Positions 13,133-23,994 of a DNA stretch of 64,000 nt are shown here, piece after piece. Numbering within the stretch: the stretch's first letter is position 1; the number at the start of each line of letters is the position of its first letter. This stretch comes from Streptomyces sp. NBC_01465 (GTDB lineage: Bacteria > Actinomycetota > Actinomycetes > Streptomycetales > Streptomycetaceae): positions 8,680,001 through 8,744,000 of the forward strand of contig NZ_CP109467.1 in NCBI RefSeq assembly GCF_036227325.1. Reading direction: 5' to 3'. The position numbers were made by a program, and so were the translations under genes. The notes beneath the pieces were generated by a model. The model was not told where the DNA came from. It worked only from the letters and a program-made list of their open reading frames with translations, and ran no database searches.

Positions 13133-14155
13133 TTGACCACACAGCCGTACGACATACCCGTCGAGCGAGAGCCCGGGGCTGAGCAGGAGCTCGACCGGGA
13201 GCGGCGGATGGGTGCCGCGCCCGGGACAGCGACCGTCACCCGGGACATCCGGGTCGTCGATCTGACCGACTTCGAAGCCCGGCGCGACGACATCACCGAG
13301 GAGTTGTGGCAGGCCGCCACCGAGATCGGTTTCTTCCAGCTCTCCGGGCACGGCCTCGACCCGGCCGAGATCGACGAGGCGTTCGCCGCAGCCGAGGCGT
13401 ACTTCGATCTGCCCGTCGGCATCAAGAGCGGCCACGCGCTCAAGAAGGGTCTGAACACGGGCTGGGAGTACCGCAGTCAGGTACGCCCCTCCACCGGTAC
13501 CCCGGACGAGAAGGAGTCCTACCAGCTCACCCGGCCGCACATGGACGGGCTGTGGCCGGACGAGGGGGAACTGCCGGGATTCCGTGAGACCTTGCTGGAT
13601 TTCGAGCGCCGCTGTCACACGCTCGCCCACCAGGTGCTGTCCTGCTTCGCCGAACGTCTCGGCCTCGCCCGTGACTTCTTCGCCCGGCGGCATGATCCGG
13701 CGAGCCCCCTGCACCAGAGCACCCTGCGGCTGCTGCACTACTACGCCGTCCCCGAGAAGGCACGCGGCACAGCGGAGGGCGGGTGGCGCGCCGGAGCTCA
13801 CACCGACTTCGACTGCCTGACTCTCCTCTTCCAGCGCGATGGGCAGGACGGTCTCCAGGTGTGCCCGGGCAAGGAGGCCGACAGCCGCGCCTGGACGCCC
13901 GTACCGGCTCGCGCCGACCTCATCACCTGCAACATCGGCGACATGCTCATGCGGTGGAGCGGCGATCTCCTGCCGTCCAACTTCCACCGGGTCGCCGCGC
14001 CCGGTCCGCAGGACGACCAGGGTCCGCGCTACTCCATCGCCTACTTCGCGCAGGCTGACCGGGACGCGGTGATCGCCGCGCCGGACGGGCGCCACGCACC
14101 CATCACCGCCGAGGAGTACCTGCGGCAGCGCATCGCTGCCAACTTCGCCGGCTGA
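13133..14155 (+). CDS. Isopenicillin-N-synthase-like Fe(II)/2-oxoglutarate dioxygenase
   Basis: A 340-residue enzyme with a TTG start preceded by AGGGAG. The jelly-roll DIOX_N and 2OG-FeII_Oxy domains are complete. The Fe(II) triad is His223 and Asp225 (AHTDFD) with His285 (NFHRV), and the 2-oxoglutarate-binding R-x-S is Arg299-Ser301 (RYSIAYF). It resembles actinobacterial IPNS-like oxygenases rather than true IPNS, since no ACV synthetase is nearby. Fungal thymine-7-hydroxylase belongs to the same superfamily, and the downstream genes encode a deaminase-like amidohydrolase and a nucleobase permease. Oxidation of a purine or pyrimidine is therefore a reasonable guess. Confidence 0.87.
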   Translation: MTTQPYDIPVEREPGAEQELDRERRMGAAPGTATVTRDIRVVDLTDFEARRDDITEELWQAATEIGFFQLSGHGLDPAEIDEAFAAAEAYFDLPVGIKSGHALKKGLNTGWEYRSQVRPSTGTPDEKESYQLTRPHMDGLWPDEGELPGFRETLLDFERRCHTLAHQVLSCFAERLGLARDFFARRHDPASPLHQSTLRLLHYYAVPEKARGTAEGGWRAGAHTDFDCLTLLFQRDGQDGLQVCPGKEADSRAWTPVPARADLITCNIGDMLMRWSGDLLPSNFHRVAAPGPQDDQGPRYSIAYFAQADRDAVIAAPDGRHAPITAEEYLRQRIAANFAG

Positions 14156-14253
14156 CCGGCAAGCCGCCCTCGGGGGTGGCTTCTGCCGCCGTGGCCGCGC
14201 GAGCGGTCACGGCGGCCCTTCTCCTACACCCACGCACGAAAGCGGGGTCCCTC

Positions 14254-15702
14254 ATGTCCGAACCACGTCCGTGCACGCTGTTGTTGTCCGGTGCCCAAGT
14301 GGTCACCGTCGATGACGCGCGCACTGTTCACCCCGACGGCGCGGTGGCCGTCGACGGCGATCGCATCGTCGACGTCGGCCCCACCACCGACCTGGTCGCC
14401 CGCTGGCGGCCGCTCCGCACCGTCGACTGCCGCGGCAGCGCCGTCCTGCCCGGATTCACCGACGCTCACACACACCTGTTCCAGAGCCTGGCCCGCGGCA
14501 TCGGCGATGGTCTCGCCATCGGGCGGTGGCTGAACGAGTTCATGTGGCCGTACGCCATTCACCTCGACTCCGAGGATGCCCGGATCGCCGCCCGACTCGG
14601 TGCCGTGGAGGCCGCCCGGGCCGGCATCACCACGGTCGTCGACCACCACTACGCGCCCAGCGACCCCGAGACCGTCCTGGCCGTCGCCGACGCGATCGAG
14701 GAGATCGGGCTGCGCGGGGCAGTCGCCCGCGGCATGCTCGGTGACCGTACTGCCGTCGCCGACGCACGGGGCCTGCCCACAGCCCTTTACCGCTACAGCA
14801 CCGAGCAGGAACTCGACCTCACCCGGCAGTGCATGTCCGCGCGTGGCGCCGAATCCATGGTGCGCGTCTGGCCCGCCCCTCTCAACCTCTCCTACGGTGA
14901 CCGGGATCTGGTGCGCGGAGCCGTCGCCCTTGCCCGTGAGCACGGGGTGCGCTGGCACACCCACTGCAGCGAGGGGCCCAAGGACCCGCAGAGCTTCCTG
15001 GGCCGGTACGGGGAACGGCCGGTGGCCTGGCTGGCGGCCGAGAACCTGCTGGACGAACACGCCACGCTGGCCCATGCGGTGTGGCTCGACGAGGAGGAGA
15101 CCGAGGCGGTCGGTGCGTACGGGGCGGGAGTGGCGCACTGCCCCTGCTCCAACGCGTACCTGGCCTCCGGCGCGATGCCCTGGCGCGGCCTGCGCGACGC
15201 GGGCGCGATGGTGGCGCTCGGTACGGACGGCCCCAGCGCCGGCGGTCGCCAGGACATGTTCGAGGTGATGAAGCAGACCCTCTTCGGGCAGCGCCTGAGC
15301 AGGCTCGATCCAACTGCCGTGCGGTGCGAGGAGGTTATTGAAGCCGCGACGCGCGACGGTGCCCGGTACGCGGGTGTCGAAGGCGGCGGGGTGATCCGGC
15401 CGGGCGCGTTGGCCGATCTGGTGGTGGTGGACCTGAAGGGAACAGCCGTACAGCCCCTGCACCGGGCGGTGTCCGCACTCGTCTACTCCGCCCGTGCGGC
15501 GGACGTCGCGATGACGCTCGTGGGCGGGCGCATCGTGTACGAAAACGGCCACTGCCCGGGCGTCGACGAGGAAGCTCTGGTCGCGCACGCGCGGGAGCGG
15601 GCGGAGCACTTGGTGCGGCGGGCGGGATTCGGGGCCCTGACAGAGCCATGGCGTAACGGCAACGGGAATCAGGACCGGCGGACAAGGGTGGCGACATCGT
15701 GA
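14254..15702 (+). CDS. Amidohydrolase, 8-oxoguanine/hydroxydechloroatrazine deaminase type
   Basis: A 482-residue enzyme starting MSEPRPC. Metal ligands of the cytosine-deaminase-like amidohydrolase fold are visible: HxH at His72/His74 (DAHTHLFQ), HTHCSEG, a further His in LAHAVWL, and Asp in LGTDGPSAGG. The family hydrolytically deaminates purines and related heterocycles such as guanine, 8-oxoguanine, S-adenosylhomocysteine or triazines. It lies 98 bp after the IPNS-like oxygenase and overlaps the permease start (GTGA), so import, oxidation and deamination of one nucleobase-like compound may be linked. Substrate specificity cannot be decided from sequence alone. Confidence 0.88.
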   Translation: MSEPRPCTLLLSGAQVVTVDDARTVHPDGAVAVDGDRIVDVGPTTDLVARWRPLRTVDCRGSAVLPGFTDAHTHLFQSLARGIGDGLAIGRWLNEFMWPYAIHLDSEDARIAARLGAVEAARAGITTVVDHHYAPSDPETVLAVADAIEEIGLRGAVARGMLGDRTAVADARGLPTALYRYSTEQELDLTRQCMSARGAESMVRVWPAPLNLSYGDRDLVRGAVALAREHGVRWHTHCSEGPKDPQSFLGRYGERPVAWLAAENLLDEHATLAHAVWLDEEETEAVGAYGAGVAHCPCSNAYLASGAMPWRGLRDAGAMVALGTDGPSAGGRQDMFEVMKQTLFGQRLSRLDPTAVRCEEVIEAATRDGARYAGVEGGGVIRPGALADLVVVDLKGTAVQPLHRAVSALVYSARAADVAMTLVGGRIVYENGHCPGVDEEALVAHARERAEHLVRRAGFGALTEPWRNGNGNQDRRTRVATS

Positions 15703-17129
15703 CCGACACACGCACGCAAGCGGCGCAGGTGCAGGTGCAGGACAGGACAAGCGCCGGAGGCCCTGCCGTCGACCCGGTCGAAGCAGTGCCGCGATGGTGG
15801 CGACTGGGTGCGCTGGGCCTGCAGCACGTCCTCGCGTTCTACGCGGGTGCGGTGGTCATGCCGCTTTTGGTGGCTCAGGGGATGGGGTTGACCGCTGCTG
15901 ATACGGCGGCCCTGATCAACACCGCGCTGGTGGCCTGCGGGGCTGCGACGCTTCTGCAGGCGGTCGGCCTGCCGGGCATCGGAATCCGACTGCCCGTGGT
16001 CCAGGGCATGTCGACCGCAGCCGTGCCCTCCTTGGTGTCGGTCGGTGTTGTCGCGGGCGGCGGGAAGGCCGGACTGCCCACGGTCTTCGGAGCGGTGATC
16101 GCGGCGGGAGCGGTTCTCTTCCTCGTCGCACCGGTTTTCGGCCGACTCATACGCTTCTTCCCTCCGCTGGTCACCGGCACCATCGTGATCATCGTCGGCG
16201 TGACCCTCATGGGTGTTGCGGCGCGGCAAGTCGGCGGTGGCGACTCCTCCGCACCCGACTTCGGCACCCCTGCGCATCTCGGCCTGGCCGGTGCCACGCT
16301 GGCGGTGATCGTGGTGCTGTCCCGGTTCGCCAAGGGTTTCCTCGCGTCCGTCGCCGTGCTCGTGGGCCTCGCCGCCGGAACGGCACTGGCTGCGACCGTG
16401 GGACGTACGGACTTCTCCGGGATAGGCAAGGCCGACTGGGTCGGCATGCAGGCCCCGCTGCACTACGGCGCACCGCGCTTCGACGTGATGGCCGTCCTCG
16501 CGATCGTCCTCGTACTCGTGATCATCGCAGTGGAGTCCATCGGCCAGTTCTTCGCTGTCGGAGACATCGCCGGACGGGAGGTCGGCGAACGGGACATCAC
16601 CCGTGCACTGCGCGCCGACGGACTGGCGACCGTCCTGGCCGGGCTGATCAACTCCTTCCCGACCACGGTCTACTCGCAGAATGTCGGACTGCTGCGGCTG
16701 ACCCGCGTCACCTCCCGCTGGATCGTCGCGGCGGCCGGCGTCCTCATGCTGGTCCTCGGCCTGATGCCCAAGGTGGGTGCGGTGGTTGCCGCCATGCCGG
16801 CCGACGTGCTGGGCGGCGCGACCATCGTCCTGTTCTCCACGATCGCTGTCGTCGGCGTACAGATCCTCGTCAAGGCCGACCTCTCCGATGCCCGCAACAC
16901 CGTGCTGGTCGCGGCGAGCCTCGGCATCGGATTCCTCCCCACCGCCTATCCGCAGTTCGCGGAGCACATGCCCACGCGGCAGCTCCAAGTGCTCTTCGAG
17001 AGCGGCATCATGCTCGGCACACTCTCGGCCGTCCTGCTCAACCTGTTCTTCCACCATCTGGGCCGGACTTCCGCCCGCCCTGCGCACACCGCCGCCTCAC
17101 CGTCCGGCACGAGCGAAAAGGCCATTTGA
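15699..17129 (+). CDS. NCS2-family uracil/xanthine permease
   Basis: A 476-residue integral membrane protein; the GTG at 15699 overlaps the deaminase stop. About 12-14 hydrophobic helices are present, with NCS2 signatures: the GLQHVLAFYAGAVVMPLLV start, IRLPVVQGMSTAAVPSLV, the conserved AVESIGQFFAVGDI helix and NSFPTTVYSQNVGLLRLTRV near the substrate site. NCS2 proteins import uracil, xanthine, urate or guanine with H+ or Na+. Translational coupling to the deaminase and oxygenase makes this a three-gene uptake-and-degradation operon. A GC-rich hairpin follows the stop codon. Confidence 0.92.
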   Translation: MTDTRTQAAQVQVQDRTSAGGPAVDPVEAVPRWWRLGALGLQHVLAFYAGAVVMPLLVAQGMGLTAADTAALINTALVACGAATLLQAVGLPGIGIRLPVVQGMSTAAVPSLVSVGVVAGGGKAGLPTVFGAVIAAGAVLFLVAPVFGRLIRFFPPLVTGTIVIIVGVTLMGVAARQVGGGDSSAPDFGTPAHLGLAGATLAVIVVLSRFAKGFLASVAVLVGLAAGTALAATVGRTDFSGIGKADWVGMQAPLHYGAPRFDVMAVLAIVLVLVIIAVESIGQFFAVGDIAGREVGERDITRALRADGLATVLAGLINSFPTTVYSQNVGLLRLTRVTSRWIVAAAGVLMLVLGLMPKVGAVVAAMPADVLGGATIVLFSTIAVVGVQILVKADLSDARNTVLVAASLGIGFLPTAYPQFAEHMPTRQLQVLFESGIMLGTLSAVLLNLFFHHLGRTSARPAHTAASPSGTSEKAI

Positions 17130-17209: not shown

Positions 17210-17620
17210 CTACGCGGGTGCGACGAGGGCGCGCTCCCAGTGCTGGGTGTCGGCGTACTCGCGCATCGTGCGGATCTTCCCGGCACGTACGACGAAGACC
17301 CCGATGTTCTTCTCGTGGTACGGGCGACCGGTCTTGCCGGTCGCCCAGGAGTCCCATTCGACGAGCAACTGCTCGCCCTCGCCGAAGACGTTGGTGACCT
17401 TCAGTCCGATCTCCTTCTCCCCGTCCAGGTGGGCGAACGCCGTCGCCAGGAAGCCGTCGATCACCTGATCCCGGCCCTGCCAGGTGCTGGAGATCGGGAG
17501 GTCGCCGCCGTACCAGCAGGAGCCGTCCTCCGCCCAGCTGTCGCGGATGGTCTGCTGATCGCCTGCGGCCAGGGCATCGAAGTAGCGGAGTACGACCTGC
17601 CGCGTCTCGGAGGTGGTCAT
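17210..17620 (-). CDS. SnoaL/NTF2-like protein A
   Basis: A 136-residue single-domain alpha+beta barrel protein of the NTF2/SnoaL-like superfamily. The N-terminal helix has RYFDALAAGD, followed by SWAEDGSCWYGGDLPIS and a C-terminal strand reading IRTMREYADTQHWERAL. Members bind small hydrophobic ligands or act as isomerases, cyclases or accessory proteins; no catalytic residue set allows a specific call. It is paralogous in layout to the SnoaL-like gene at 18835, with matching phrases GDLP-S-TW-G-D and a MREY/VREHFDT ending. Both genes have a near-identical 41-bp element 65-75 bp before their starts, flanking a LysR gene, so co-regulation is likely. Confidence 0.82.
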   Translation of the reverse strand: MTTSETRQVVLRYFDALAAGDQQTIRDSWAEDGSCWYGGDLPISSTWQGRDQVIDGFLATAFAHLDGEKEIGLKVTNVFGEGEQLLVEWDSWATGKTGRPYHEKNIGVFVVRAGKIRTMREYADTQHWERALVAPA

Positions 17621-17687
17621 GGTGAAGTGCTCCTGTTCGGGGGGTGATTGTGGACACCCCCGACCCTAGGAAGGGCCGGTGCGGCAG

Positions 17688-17728
17688 GGGAAAGACCTGT
17701 TCCGGATCGGTTCAGAACGAACCGGCAT
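17688..17728 (-). promoter_or_regulatory. Duplicated upstream element, copy B (facing SnoaL-like gene A)
   Basis: Read on the reverse strand, this 41-bp segment begins ATGCCGGT, contains GTTCTG, and ends GGAACAGGTCTTTCCC. It matches copy A (18721-18761) at 32 of 41 positions without gaps. It lies 67 bp before the SnoaL-like gene A start. Copy B also holds the inverted repeat GGTTC-N5-GAACC. It is a likely LysR operator and/or promoter. Confidence 0.65.
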
Positions 17729-17774
17729 AGCTGCAGGCCGGGAGTCGTACGTACGAGGGCCCGGTGCGCGGGAC

Positions 17775-18686
17775 TCACGCCGGTGGGCGGAGCCAGCCGT
17801 GGTCGCGGGTGGTGCGGGAGGCGACCTGCAGCAGCCGGGCCGTGGCGGGGCGGCCGGTGCCGCCGCGCGTGAGCAGGTGGATCTCGATGGTCGCCGCCGG
17901 GGACAGCGGCCACCACACCAGCCCGGCAGGAAGGCCGGGCAGGGCGGACTCGCCGACGACAGAGACGGCCTCGCCCCGGGCGACGGGCATGTAGGAGGCG
18001 TCGAAGGACAGTTGGCGCTCGAGCAGCCTCGGTGAGATTCCGGCGCGTTCGAAGATGCCGGTGATCGCGTCGTAGTGGCCAGGGTTGTCGCTGCGGCTGT
18101 GGACGAGCACTGTCTTGTCGGCGAGCGCGGTGACGGCGATCTCGTCCGGATCGGCGGCGAGGGGGTGGTCCTCGGCCATGAGTACGCCCTGGGGTTCCAG
18201 GCGCACCAGGGTGCGGACCAGTTGCGGGGTCGGCGGCGGGCACCGGACCAGGCCGGCGTCGAGTGTGCCGTCGGCGACGCCCGCCAGGATCTCGGCGGTG
18301 GGCAGCAACCGCGTGCTGACGCTGATACCGGGATGGGCCTCGGCGAGCGCGGCGAGCAGGGTGGGCGCGGTCTCGTATCCGGTGCTCGCGCTGTAGCCCA
18401 CCGACACGCTGCCGCACTCGCCCGACGCGAAGCCGCGCACGTCCCGCCACAGCCGGTCGGCCTCCTCGCAGAGGGGCGCCCCGCGCTCCATCATGAGCCG
18501 GCCGGCCTCGGTGGGCTCCACCTGCTGAGTGGTGCGCTCCAGCAGTCGTACGCCCAACTCCTGTTCCAGTTGGCGTATTTGGCGACTCAGGGCGGGCTGG
18601 GCGATGTGCAGGCGCTCGGCGGCCCGGGTGAAATTCCGCTCCTCGGCTACGGCGAGGAAGTAACGGAGACGTCGAAGATCTGCCAT
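17775..18686 (-). CDS. LysR-family transcriptional regulator
   Basis: A 303-residue regulator starting MADLRRLRYFLAVAEE. The N-terminal winged HTH (about 1-62) includes RNFTRAAERLHIAQPALSRQ and LEQELGVRLLERT; the LysR_substrate effector domain (about 90-295) follows. It sits between two SnoaL-like genes: gene A downstream on the same strand, gene B divergent from its own start. Both SnoaL promoters carry the same 41-bp element, and copy A lies between this gene and gene B where it could also serve autoregulation. LysR regulators usually bind T-N11-A boxes and need a small effector, which is unknown here. Confidence 0.9.
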   Translation of the reverse strand: MADLRRLRYFLAVAEERNFTRAAERLHIAQPALSRQIRQLEQELGVRLLERTTQQVEPTEAGRLMMERGAPLCEEADRLWRDVRGFASGECGSVSVGYSASTGYETAPTLLAALAEAHPGISVSTRLLPTAEILAGVADGTLDAGLVRCPPPTPQLVRTLVRLEPQGVLMAEDHPLAADPDEIAVTALADKTVLVHSRSDNPGHYDAITGIFERAGISPRLLERQLSFDASYMPVARGEAVSVVGESALPGLPAGLVWWPLSPAATIEIHLLTRGGTGRPATARLLQVASRTTRDHGWLRPPA

Positions 18687-18720
18687 GCCACGCACCCTAC
18701 AACCGCCCTGAACTGGACTT

Positions 18721-18761
18721 ATGCCGGTCTGTTCTGGACCCGGTGCGAACAGGTCTTTCCC
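18721..18761 (+). promoter_or_regulatory. Duplicated upstream element, copy A (facing SnoaL-like gene B)
   Basis: A 41-bp segment ATGCCGGT...GTTCTG...CGAACAGGTCTTTCCC, 32/41 identical and ungapped relative to copy B near 17.7 kb. It lies 73 bp before the SnoaL-like gene B start and 34 bp from the LysR start, so it probably works in both directions. The conserved blocks are at both ends, the variable bases in the middle, as expected for a dimeric regulator site. Confidence 0.65.
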
Positions 18762-18782
18762 TTCCACGGTGGGGGATTCCTA

Positions 18783-18818
18783 GTGTTCGAGGCGTCGGAA
18801 AGCCGACGCCTCGAACAC
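18783..18818. repeat. Perfect 16-bp inverted repeat in the leader of SnoaL-like gene B
   Basis: The arm GTGTTCGAGGCGTCGG (18783-18798), a 4-nt AAAG loop and an exact reverse-complement arm (18803-18818) form a very stable hairpin ending 16 bp before the start codon and just before the AGAAGGG leader. Copy A of the shared element lies 21 bp upstream. It may act as an attenuator, an mRNA-stability stem or a protein site. The paralogous gene A has no equivalent hairpin. Confidence 0.85.
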
Positions 18819-18834
18819 GGAGAAGGGACTCACC

Positions 18835-19248
18835 ATGAACCAGCAGGAAATCACCCGAGCGAGCAAGACAGTTGTCCAGGCGTACATGGACACACTGATG
18901 ACGGGCGACATGGACGCGCTGCGTGACTTCTTCACGCCCGACGCGACCTGGACGCTCGCCGGCGATCTGCCGCTGTCGGGAACGTGGACGGGCCCGGACG
19001 AGATCCTCGGCACGTTCGTGCCGGCGATGGTGGCCCGGCTGGTGCCGGAGTCGATGGAGTTCGAGTTCGAGGGACTGATCGCGGAGGGCGAGCGGGTCCT
19101 CGCCGAATGGAACACCCGGGGCCTGGCGCGGGCAGGCGGCCGCTACGACCAGCACTGCCTGGCGATCTTCACGGTCCGGGAAGGCCGGATCACCGCCGTG
19201 CGTGAGCACTTCGACACCCTCCACGCCAAGACCGTCGTCTTCGCCTGA
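18835..19248 (+). CDS. SnoaL/NTF2-like protein B
   Basis: A 137-residue single-domain SnoaL/NTF2-like protein: N-terminal helix VVQAYMDTLMTGDMDALRDF, then TPDATWTLAGDLPLSGTW, and a C-terminal GRITAVREHFDTLHA strand. It resembles gene A at 17210 in length and in the GDLP-S-TW-GPDE region. It has an AGAAGGG leader and is followed 53 bp later by a quinone-oxidoreductase-like gene on the same strand, probably one transcript. The leader is preceded by a perfect 16-bp hairpin. The ligand or reaction is unknown; the neighbourhood suggests a response to a small electrophile or polyketide-like compound. Confidence 0.83.
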   Translation: MNQQEITRASKTVVQAYMDTLMTGDMDALRDFFTPDATWTLAGDLPLSGTWTGPDEILGTFVPAMVARLVPESMEFEFEGLIAEGERVLAEWNTRGLARAGGRYDQHCLAIFTVREGRITAVREHFDTLHAKTVVFA

Positions 19249-19301: not shown

Positions 19302-20240
19302 ATGAAGGCCATGCTGCCCGGATCCGCCGCCGATGCCGACAAGCCCGTCGTACTCGGTGAAGTCGCCGAGCCCGAGCCCGCCGCCGGCGAGGCCGTCGTC
19401 GCGGTGGAGGCGTACTCCGTGAACCGGGGCGAGACCTTCCAGCTCGACGGCGGCCTCGACCGCCGCTGGGCAGGATGGCGCCCCGGCAAGGACGTCGCAG
19501 GCACCGTCGTACGGGCGGCCGCCGACGGCACAGGACCAGCGACCGGAACCCGCGTGGTGGCCCACCCGCCGGCGTACGGCTGGGCCGAGCGCGTCACCGT
19601 GCCCACCGCGAACCTGGCCGAACTCCCCAACAGCGTCGACGCCGTGACCGCCGCGGCCCTCCCGCTCGCCGGGATCACCGCACTGCGGCTGCTGCGCGCC
19701 GCCGGCCCGCTCGCCGGCCGCCGCGTCCTGCTCACCGGGGCCAGCGGGGGAGTAGGCCACTACGTGACCGAACTGGTCGCCGCCTCCGGCGCGGACCTCA
19801 CCGCAGTCACCGCCACGGCGGAACGCGGCGCGCAACTCCTCCAGCTCGGCGCCACCGAACTGGTCACGTCGGCGGCCGACGCGACAGGCCTGTACGACGT
19901 GGTGCTGGAATCGGTCGGCGGGGCCTCCCTGCCCGCCGCGCTGGCCCGCCTGGAGCCGGGCGGGCTGCTGGTCTGGTTCGGCCAGGCCAGCCGCGAGCCC
20001 GTGACGCTCGACTTCTTCGACTTCTTCAAGGGGCCGAACCAGGCGCGCATCGCGCACTTCGACTACACGGCAGCGGACACGACGTACGGCCAGGACCTGA
20101 CAGCGCTGGTCCGCCTGGTGGCCGCAGGCCGCCTGCACCCCGAGATCGGCACCGTACGCGACTGGAGCCGCACCGCCGACGTCATCACCGAACTGCGCGG
20201 CCGGAGGATCCGCGGCAACGCAGTCCTTACCGTCGGCTGA
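19302..20240 (+). CDS. Zinc-independent NADPH:quinone oxidoreductase-like MDR protein
   Basis: A 312-residue MDR-family oxidoreductase lacking the structural-zinc Cys cluster. The GroES-like N-terminal domain (EAYSVNRGETFQLDGG, WRPGKDVAGTVV) is followed by the NADPH-binding motif LLTGASGGVGHYVTEL, in the AxxGxxG style of quinone reductases. The family reduces quinones or alpha,beta-unsaturated carbonyls with NADPH in the cytosol. It follows SnoaL-like gene B with an AGGAGC leader and probably belongs to the LysR-controlled unit. It ends 16 bp from the end of the convergent S41 protease gene. Confidence 0.87.
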   Translation: MKAMLPGSAADADKPVVLGEVAEPEPAAGEAVVAVEAYSVNRGETFQLDGGLDRRWAGWRPGKDVAGTVVRAAADGTGPATGTRVVAHPPAYGWAERVTVPTANLAELPNSVDAVTAAALPLAGITALRLLRAAGPLAGRRVLLTGASGGVGHYVTELVAASGADLTAVTATAERGAQLLQLGATELVTSAADATGLYDVVLESVGGASLPAALARLEPGGLLVWFGQASREPVTLDFFDFFKGPNQARIAHFDYTAADTTYGQDLTALVRLVAAGRLHPEIGTVRDWSRTADVITELRGRRIRGNAVLTVG

Positions 20241-22743: not shown

Positions 22744-22950
22744 CCACCCCCTGAAGGGGGTGGCTTCTCGCTATGCCTGGTTGGCATTGCGATGGACCAG
22801 CCCGGCCCGTAGAACGTTGGTTGCTCCGACTTCGTCGGCGTGCGCCTGATGGTCGCACGAGACGCAGTGGAACTTTTCCTGTGTGGGCCGGTTCTCCTTC
22901 GCGGTGTGCCCGCATTGGGGGCACTGGCGGGAGGTGTTGCGGGGGTCCAC
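22744..22950 (-). ncRNA. Predicted omegaRNA (reRNA) region of element 1
   Basis: TnpB proteins of IS200/IS605 elements use a guide RNA transcribed from the 3' part of tnpB through the right end, with the guide read from flanking DNA. The tnpB 3' end and the right-end hairpin here are intact and collinear, so an omegaRNA is expected. Its guide would come from the GNAT gene DNA flanking the right end. The 5' boundary is not visible and is only estimated. Confidence 0.4.
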
Positions 22951-23994
22951 GGCGATTGCTTCTCGTCCGGCGCTTTCAGCCTTGGCGTGCAGGATCGTCA
23001 GGAACACCCCCCAACCGGCGTCGGCTATCGCCCGGTTGAGCCCGGACTTGGCTGCGGCCCCGTTAGGCAGGAACGCGCCCGGATGGTCGGGGTCGGGTTT
23101 CGGCTGGGCGGTCTTGCTCATGTTGCGGATCTTGAGGTCTTCGTGCGCGATGACGTCGTGCTCACGGACCAGGTCGAGCGCGGTCTTGTGCGCGTGGTCG
23201 AGTCGCTGGCGTCGCACCTTGCCGTGCAGGGCTGCGACGCGTTCGACGGCCCGTTGGTGGTTGCGGGTGCGGTGGTGCGCCCTGCAACGCGGGTAGCGGC
23301 TCAGCGCCCGTTGTGCTGCTTGGAGCTTCGCGGCTGCATTGCGGGCATGACGCGGGTTTTTGATGTGCGCGCCGTTGGAGTCGGTCAGGAACGAGGCGAT
23401 GCCCATGTCGATGCCGACCACGCTGCCTGTCGTGGGCAGCGGTTGGGGCCGGGCCTGTTCGGCGGTGAGCACGACGAACCATTTCCGGCCCTCGCGCTTG
23501 ACCGAGACGGTCTTGACCTTGCCGACCACCGGCCTGTGCTGGTTGACCTTGACGTGACCGACGCCTTGGAAGCGGACGCGGGTGACGGGGTCGTGCGCGG
23601 TGGCATCCCACCGGCAGCCGTCGCCGTCCTTGGGGAAGTCCACCGTGTCGAACCACATTGCGCCACGAAAGCGCGGATAGCCCGGTGCATCACCGGCCTT
23701 GATCCGGCGGAAGAACGCGGCGAATGCCTTGTCCAGGCGGCGCAAGGTGGCCTGCTGCGAGCTGAATGACCAGCGGCCGTGACGCTCGGGGTCGAAGGCG
23801 CGGATCTCCTTGAGCTGCGCGGACTGCTGTCCGTACGTGATGCTCGTCCTGGAGACGTGCCGGTAGGCGTCGCGACGCTCTTGGAGTGCGCCGTTGTAGA
23901 GGCCGCAGTGATCGCGCAGCATCTCGCCCAGCGCGATCGTCTGGCGCACGGTGGGCCGCATGAGGAATTTGTACGCACGGATCATCTGGCCCAC
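22771..23994 (-). CDS. tnpB: TnpB, RNA-guided RuvC nuclease of IS605-type element 1
   Basis: A 407-residue TnpB. The RuvC triad is complete: Asp196 (GIDMGIASFL), Glu285 (AHEDLKIRNM) and Asp387 (HADEVGATNVL). The zinc ribbon is present as Cys358/Cys361 and Cys377/Cys380 (CPQCGH, CVSCDH). The start may be the GTG at 23994 or the ATG three codons later. TnpB is not the transposase but an omegaRNA-guided DNA nuclease, ancestral to Cas12, that helps retain the element. It is divergent from the tnpA remnant. The reading frame is intact and so are all catalytic residues, making activity plausible. Confidence 0.9.
   Translation of the reverse strand: MGQMIRAYKFLMRPTVRQTIALGEMLRDHCGLYNGALQERRDAYRHVSRTSITYGQQSAQLKEIRAFDPERHGRWSFSSQQATLRRLDKAFAAFFRRIKAGDAPGYPRFRGAMWFDTVDFPKDGDGCRWDATAHDPVTRVRFQGVGHVKVNQHRPVVGKVKTVSVKREGRKWFVVLTAEQARPQPLPTTGSVVGIDMGIASFLTDSNGAHIKNPRHARNAAAKLQAAQRALSRYPRCRAHHRTRNHQRAVERVAALHGKVRRQRLDHAHKTALDLVREHDVIAHEDLKIRNMSKTAQPKPDPDHPGAFLPNGAAAKSGLNRAIADAGWGVFLTILHAKAESAGREAIAVDPRNTSRQCPQCGHTAKENRPTQEKFHCVSCDHQAHADEVGATNVLRAGLVHRNANQA

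Follow-up and report, generated by a model that had tools for sequence, protein, structure and literature searches.

The window analysed here is a 64-kb stretch (positions 8,680,001-8,744,000) of the 9.14-Mb single-contig genome of Streptomyces sp. NBC_01465, in which a lysR gene lies between two SnoaL-like genes, SnoaL1 and SnoaL2, each preceded by a copy (e1 and e2, respectively) of a 41-bp element. The arrangement raises two questions: whether e1 and e2 are operators of the LysR protein encoded between them, and how two SnoaL genes came to carry them. The answer we favour, with a probability of roughly 80%, is a small LysR regulon in which e1 and e2 would be two-part operators of LysR, SnoaL1 and the SnoaL2-dehydrogenase pair would both be under its control, and SnoaL1 would have been brought in from a separate family. 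The computed basis is sequence match, conservation, co-occurrence of the element with one LysR clade, a fixed spacing to a TAnnnT hexamer and separate SnoaL clades. The features concerned are listed below by window position, with alignment columns counted from the first base of the element.

17210..17620, minus strand: SnoaL1, SnoaL_2/NTF2-like protein of 136 aa (amino acids); Pfam SnoaL_2, E 1.7e-12
17663..17668, minus strand: predicted -10 of SnoaL1, TAGGGT (columns 61-66), at the element distance of TAGnGT in 13/13 LysR-type modules
17688..17728, minus strand: element e1, a predicted LysR operator for SnoaL1 with its recognition part at 17714-17728 and its activation block at 17688-17701; 32/41 to e2, 62.6 bits
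17775..18686, minus strand: lysR, LysR-type regulator of 303 aa with its ATG at 18686; Pfam HTH_1 1.2e-27, LysR_substrate 7.1e-29
18721..18761, plus strand: element e2 in the divergent gap, a predicted LysR operator with its recognition part at 18721-18735 and its activation block at 18748-18761; in register in 12/12 other modules, 57.8 bits
18781..18786, plus strand: predicted -10 of SnoaL2, TAGTGT (columns 61-66); T61, A62, G63, G65 and T66 invariant in 13/13, column 64 free
18835..19248, plus strand: SnoaL2, SnoaL_2/NTF2-like protein of 137 aa; Pfam SnoaL_2, 1.6e-19; 70-89% identity in 12 other modules
19302..20240, plus strand: medium-chain quinone-oxidoreductase-like dehydrogenase of 312 aa, directly after SnoaL2; Pfam ADH_N, ADH_zinc_N; 78-87% identity in 12/12 other modules

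A preliminary description of this DNA had the order of lysR and the two SnoaL-like genes right and omitted the dehydrogenase at 19302-20240. LysR scored 96 bits for HTH_1 (Pfam cut-off 26.6) and 101.1 bits for LysR_substrate (cut-off 28), and both SnoaL proteins passed the SnoaL_2 cut-off of 27 bits (SnoaL1 48.2, SnoaL2 70.8). SnoaL2 also passed the cut-off of the Pfam SnoaL polyketide cyclase family (32.7 vs 28.4 bits), for which SnoaL1 gave no match. The two proteins were 33% identical over 132 residues.

Identity and rarity of the paired elements

Alignment bore out the 32/41 ungapped identity previously reported between 17688-17728 (minus strand) and 18721-18761 (plus strand). Between the 180-bp regions upstream of the two genes, the highest-scoring ungapped 41-mer had 32 identities, a value reached by 0 of 1000 dinucleotide-preserving shuffles (mean 21.9, maximum 26). 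The spacing of about 70 bp to both genes also held, with 67 bp from element end to ATG for SnoaL1 and 73 bp for SnoaL2. Beyond the 41 bp the alignment agreed again at a -10-like hexamer at equal distance (TAGGGT after e1, TAGTGT after e2), and apart from this hexamer the flanks were dissimilar.

A matrix built from the sites of 12 other genomes, with the window left out, gave 62.6 bits for e1 and 57.8 bits for e2, while the next place in the window reached 4.3 bits. e1 scored higher than any of the 12 training sites (49.7-62.1 bits). This bears on whether e1 might be a functionless remnant, with SnoaL1 driven by other means, as would suit the SnoaL1 orthologues of 7/7 other genomes, which do without the element. 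A decaying copy should hardly outscore every intact site (62.1 bits at most) or preserve its distance to the -10, and we regard a remnant as improbable.

Within its own genome, at ≤3 mismatches, the element was found only as e1, e2 and a third copy present in both chromosome ends, which form an inverted repeat (the surrounding 6000 bp are identical at the two ends); this copy precedes a second, related lysR and scored 48.9 bits with the LysR-type matrix. Scatter through the genome, which the preliminary description had named as speaking against its reading, was not seen in this search of the 9.14 Mb, and a scattered repeat is thereby ruled out.

The pattern GGTCTTTCCC-N19-TAnnnT, which joins the end of the element to the hexamer, was equally restricted. 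It occurred at 4 places in the own genome, all of them these sites, also when 1 mismatch was allowed, and a survey of 21 genomes gave 7 places, spread over 4 genomes, each next to LysR or its sister regulator LysRT where checked (reversed control, 1). A fixed distance between block and TAnnnT is what one would expect if the block served a special sigma factor as its -35, with LysR uninvolved, but the own-genome pattern and the confinement to LysR and LysRT loci disfavour such a promoter class, as does conservation that extends to column 1, far upstream of a -35. We consider this explanation very unlikely.

Association with one LysR clade

With the variable columns left free and ≤2 mismatches allowed, a generalized element matched 35 places in 30/392 Streptomyces-genus genomes (reversed controls, 0). 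Thirty-three of the 35 lay directly before a lysR gene (30 loci checked, two more placed by coordinates, and e2 from the window): 5 before an orthologue of the window's LysR, e2 included, and 28 before LysRT. The 34th was e1. LysRT, about 41% identical to LysR, was present at ≥86% identity in 28/392 genomes, with a 29th (G285) at 45%; 26/28 had a site within 2 mismatches. It faced a DUF1330 gene in 22/26 loci, and in the remaining four genus loci DUF1330 was not matched.

In the own genome, both chromosome ends (L018 6800-8197 and L019, in the terminal inverted repeat) carry LysRT with its element copy facing a DUF1330 gene. A genome from another family of the same order (G405) has an 89% identical LysRT with the element (L233), and its 3-kb locus gave no DUF1330 match.

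More distant relatives kept part of the arrangement. L232, on a plasmid of Streptomyces sp. NBC_00503, and L205, in G285, have GGTCTTTCCC and TAnnnT at the same spacing; they matched 18/20 and 15/20 pattern positions, and the dehydrogenases facing their regulators are 50% and 46% identical to that of the window. Among plasmids, LysR relatives were found in 3 records only, at 40-42% identity, where L232 has a site of a third sub-group and L231 one of LysRT type. A tree of 40 regulators placed the 22 that have the element on one side of a branch with support 100/99 (the root served for drawing only, and the 18 outsiders were chosen by us from the fetched loci).

LysRT could in principle bind e1, besides or instead of the neighbouring LysR. 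e1 matches the terminal-repeat site at 34/41 positions vs 32/41 for e2, and shares with that site CGTTCTGAACC-n-ATCC and a C at column 42. At the clade-specific positions (ATGCCGG, GAACAGG), however, e1 is of the LysR type, and with the LysR-type matrix it scored highest, at 62.6 bits against 48.9 for the terminal-repeat site, so that we judge binding by LysRT unlikely. Co-occurrence with the clade and the matrix ranks of e1 and e2 make the element very probably an operator of LysR, with both SnoaL genes predicted to be under its control; this part of the preliminary reading stood, whereas the origin by duplication that went with it was not supported.

Structure of the predicted operator

We compared 13 LysR-type modules, consisting of those of 12 other genomes and e2 of the window. 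Columns 1, 2, 5, 6, 15, 16, 28-30 and 32-42 were invariant, together with TAGnGT at columns 61-66, and e1 departed from the invariant columns at column 42 only. The conserved ends and variable middle noted earlier for the window's pair thus hold across other genomes as well. TAnnnT occupied columns 61-66 in all 13 modules, in e1, in 26/26 LysRT loci (as TAACCT or TAGCCT) and in the two more distant relatives.

The recognition part would be an imperfect dyad, ATnnCGnnnCGnnnT, and the activation part a block, AACnGGTCTTTCCC, over the predicted -35. A dyad centred on column 8 was the best pairing over both site types combined (0.54 for LysR-type, 0.79 for LysRT-type sites). Over 27 distinct sites, columns 1/15 paired in 27/27, columns 5/11 in 25/27 and columns 6/10 in 16/27. 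Columns 3/13 and 4/12 were A-T in 13/13 LysRT-type sites; LysR-type sites (n = 14), when paired, had G-C (3) or A-T (2) at columns 3/13 and C-G (4) at columns 4/12. We do not claim a second dyad, GGAA-N7-TTCC centred on column 33, as column 26 was G in 7/14 LysR-type and 0/13 LysRT-type sites.

Assuming a start about 7 nucleotides after the -10, the dyad would be centred near -65 and the block would lie over the -35. One site near -65 and one over the -35 is the LysR layout described in PMC8407307, and TAnnnT is given in PMC4895711 as the general -10 of S. coelicolor. The preliminary description had likened the element to a dimeric LysR site. A LysR operator remains the best description, but a single dimer site does not; the element fits a recognition site plus an activation site with a -10 at fixed distance. 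If so, an uncharacterized LysR can be assigned its operator at single-base precision ahead of experiment.

Predicted control of the two SnoaL genes

From these results we infer LysR binding, its sign, the start sites, the effector and a joint SnoaL function. LysR would bind the recognition part and the activation part, with TAnnnT at fixed distance downstream. In the divergent gap, e2 would drive SnoaL2 and the dehydrogenase and would probably let LysR control its own gene, while e1 would place SnoaL1, on the far side of lysR, under the same control. Binding of an effector would shift LysR on the activation part, and both promoters would switch together; PMC8407307 and PMC11739112 present such a sliding movement at the activation site as their model. 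The -35 motif published for S. coelicolor in PMC4895711, NTGACC, was not seen at the right distance from the predicted -10, and activation is the favoured sign of regulation because no good -35 was seen. Such a regulon would be ordinary in kind and unusually well defined in sequence, its points of interest being a rigid activation half and an apparently recruited second target.

Several observations weigh against this assignment. Among the 34 clade-associated sites, e1 alone does not stand immediately before a lysR, and in no other genome seen does it occupy its SnoaL1 position. For LysR-type sites taken alone, the column-8 dyad (0.54) is beaten by centres at 36.5 (0.64) and 33-33.5 (0.56). 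Neither e1 nor e2 has the textbook T-N11-A, which occurs in 4/27 distinct sites (as T2-N11-A14 in 4/14 LysR-type and 0/13 LysRT-type sites), although LysR proteins with other spacings or motif variants are on record in PMC12609908. The sites are related by descent, so their agreement is not independent at every column. At the genome level, the 35th generalized match (a second match in G193, at 2 mismatches) has no such regulator beside it and is probably due to chance; the G329 site needs 3 mismatches, and in G035 the LysRT locus, where the match to the protein begins at residue 20, has no site.

The stretch from the predicted -10 of SnoaL2 to its ribosome site contains a perfect 16-bp inverted repeat with a 4-nucleotide loop (window 18783-18818; z -7.7); the repeat is kept in L021 (z -3.9), and L022 gave no significant signal (z -0.5). 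Because of its overlap with the -10, the repeat may be the DNA operator of a second regulator instead of an RNA hairpin.

Conservation of the lysR/SnoaL2-dehydrogenase module

Eleven named genomes contain the LysR orthologue, at 72-84% identity, and the other 69 of 80 kept loci reached ≤43%. These records belong to Streptomyces and one Saccharothrix. Within the 392 genomes the orthologue was present in 5, own included (E up to 1e-90). Together these make 12 distinct other genomes, G059, G304 and G116 of the genus set being already among the named records. In 12/12, lysR is divergent from SnoaL2 and the dehydrogenase, and the gap between them contains a single element in unchanged register (the dehydrogenase of L028 is truncated by the contig end, and the SnoaL2 match of L026 is split into two pieces in different frames). 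The SnoaL1 family, xanthine permease, amidohydrolase and S41 peptidase of the window were found in 0/12 of the stretches around these modules, which therefore sit in other surroundings there.

An exact 15-mer of the element, GAACAGGTCTTTCCC, occurred at 14 places in 13/392 genomes (reversed control, 1/392). It was beside the gene in 5/5 genomes with the LysR orthologue; in the other 8 genomes it fell in two recurring contexts (6 and 2 genomes), coding by eye. In the 11 named orthologue genomes the element pattern matched at 13 places. Eleven of these are the modules themselves, one is a LysRT site in SDr-06 and one belongs to a second module in Streptomyces sp. 2131.1. This second module, at a chromosome end (L227 4600-7019), has an intact element, SnoaL2 at 85% and dehydrogenase at 87% identity, and a degraded lysR with an in-frame stop and its 3' part lost.

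Origin of SnoaL1 and its element

To the preliminary description the cluster seemed to have arisen by duplication with conserved regulation. If a SnoaL gene had recently been duplicated along with the LysR-controlled promoter in front of it, and the proteins had then diverged fast, this would account for two SnoaL_2 proteins, 33% identical, that flank one lysR and have similar promoters. The SnoaL tree pointed elsewhere. Among its 55 rows, SnoaL1 and SnoaL2 fell in separate clades (support 100/100 and 100/97), each multi-genus by source names; we picked the rows from the matches, and the tree program issued a warning about long branches in the outsider set. Orthologues of SnoaL1 (73-88% identity) were found in 7 other genomes of the 392 and on one S. 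cattleyicolor plasmid, and in all 7 and the plasmid the 12-18 kb fetched contained neither an element (≥17/20 positions) nor a close SnoaL2 relative. Plasmid relatives of SnoaL1 occur in 4 records; in the two that were opened (H4 and H6, the latter being the G311 place) no element was found.

The element also has its own affinities. e1 resembles the Saccharothrix sp. ST-888 element most (37/41), with 34/41 to four others and 32/41 to e2, although e1 lies near the consensus and therefore matches every element better. Separate clades, element-free orthologues, 12/12 other modules without SnoaL1 and the greater nearness of e1 to ST-888 make it more likely that SnoaL1 stems from a distinct, older family and was recruited under the LysR switch than that the cluster was duplicated. 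With flanks that are unlike outside the -10 and a conserved module that comprises lysR and SnoaL2-dehydrogenase in 12/12, origin by duplication is not supported; a recent event of this kind, against which the SnoaL tree, the element distances and the 12 other modules all speak, seems to us quite unlikely, while duplication at a much earlier point in the history of the SnoaL family is possible.

Two metagenomic proteins of 239 aa, P0079 and P0081 (only P0079 is in the tree), combine a half of the SnoaL2 clade with a half of the SnoaL1 clade, and some contigs (lengths 3966, 1937, 224374 and 8001606) seem, judged by matching lengths and organism names, to contain both SnoaL families, with Streptomyces sp. 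NBC_00859 and NPDC046716 among the strains concerned. The fusion and these contigs suggest that the SnoaL1 and SnoaL2 proteins probably act together. The window appears to be a case of a gene from another family brought under a LysR switch, for which the natural fusion protein hints at the reason.

The SnoaL1 orthologues of L220 and L221 (G302 and G243) have a different LysR gene upstream, 35-36% identical to that of the window, with what by eye is the end of a tautomerase-like gene just before SnoaL1. The SnoaL1 upstream regions of L135, L137, L138 and L139 have a common stretch of their own, roughly GATCGCG..GTGA and CTTGACTGTG (by eye; L137 partly), perhaps the site of another regulator.

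A broader proposal, which we put forward only tentatively and hold to be possible but doubtful, is that the element marks out a LysR clade whose operator code is divided. Its activation half, GGTCTTTCCC with TAnnnT at fixed spacing, would be rigid across four sub-groups, and the recognition half would change with each sub-group and so separate paralogous regulators. In this strain the code would have been copied to a second gene, putting SnoaL1, as a partner of SnoaL2 (possibly in a hetero-oligomer), under the same switch. The usual picture is of a conserved recognition site and a looser activation site, whereas in this clade the activation half is the part that appears rigid across sub-groups; four natural regulator-operator pairs make this directly testable.

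Similarity to characterized systems

The nearest solved relatives of the window's LysR by sequence include BenM, the CbnR-type 1ixc and CatM. It resembles this type in its HTH_1 and LysR_substrate domains, in a divergent target with a predicted operator in the gap (in the window and 12/12 modules) and, given the assumed start, in predicted sites near -65 and over the -35, as laid out in PMC8407307. Its predicted operator differs from theirs in an imperfect T-N11-A and in having the activation half as the more conserved one, and the protein falls far under every NCBIfam LysR cut-off shown, the best being AlsR at 160.7 vs 430 bits (among 25 of 54). No publication on this LysR group was found within the open-access literature and terms searched.

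Both SnoaL proteins matched limonene-epoxide hydrolase structures and the uncharacterized NTF2-like 3fgy weakly, by sequence only. The dehydrogenase has the ADH_N and ADH_zinc_N domains of PIG3-type quinone oxidoreductases and quinone_pig3 as its top NCBIfam model, yet at 89.8 bits (cut-off 296.8) it lies outside that subfamily. A SnoaL-like protein of aromatic catabolism in Pseudomonas sp. NGC7 is described in PMC12314914 as a predicted isomerase. Our guess is that the SnoaL proteins and the dehydrogenase convert a reactive ring compound, with that compound or its precursor as effector.

Neighbouring genes

Convergent with SnoaL1 is a row of genes for a 2OG-Fe(II) oxygenase, an amidohydrolase and a xanthine permease (window 13133-17129), possibly a purine-use cluster. 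An open reading frame at window 22771-23994 (minus strand) encodes what we take to be a TnpB-type transposon protein, from the look of its C-terminal CxxC motifs.

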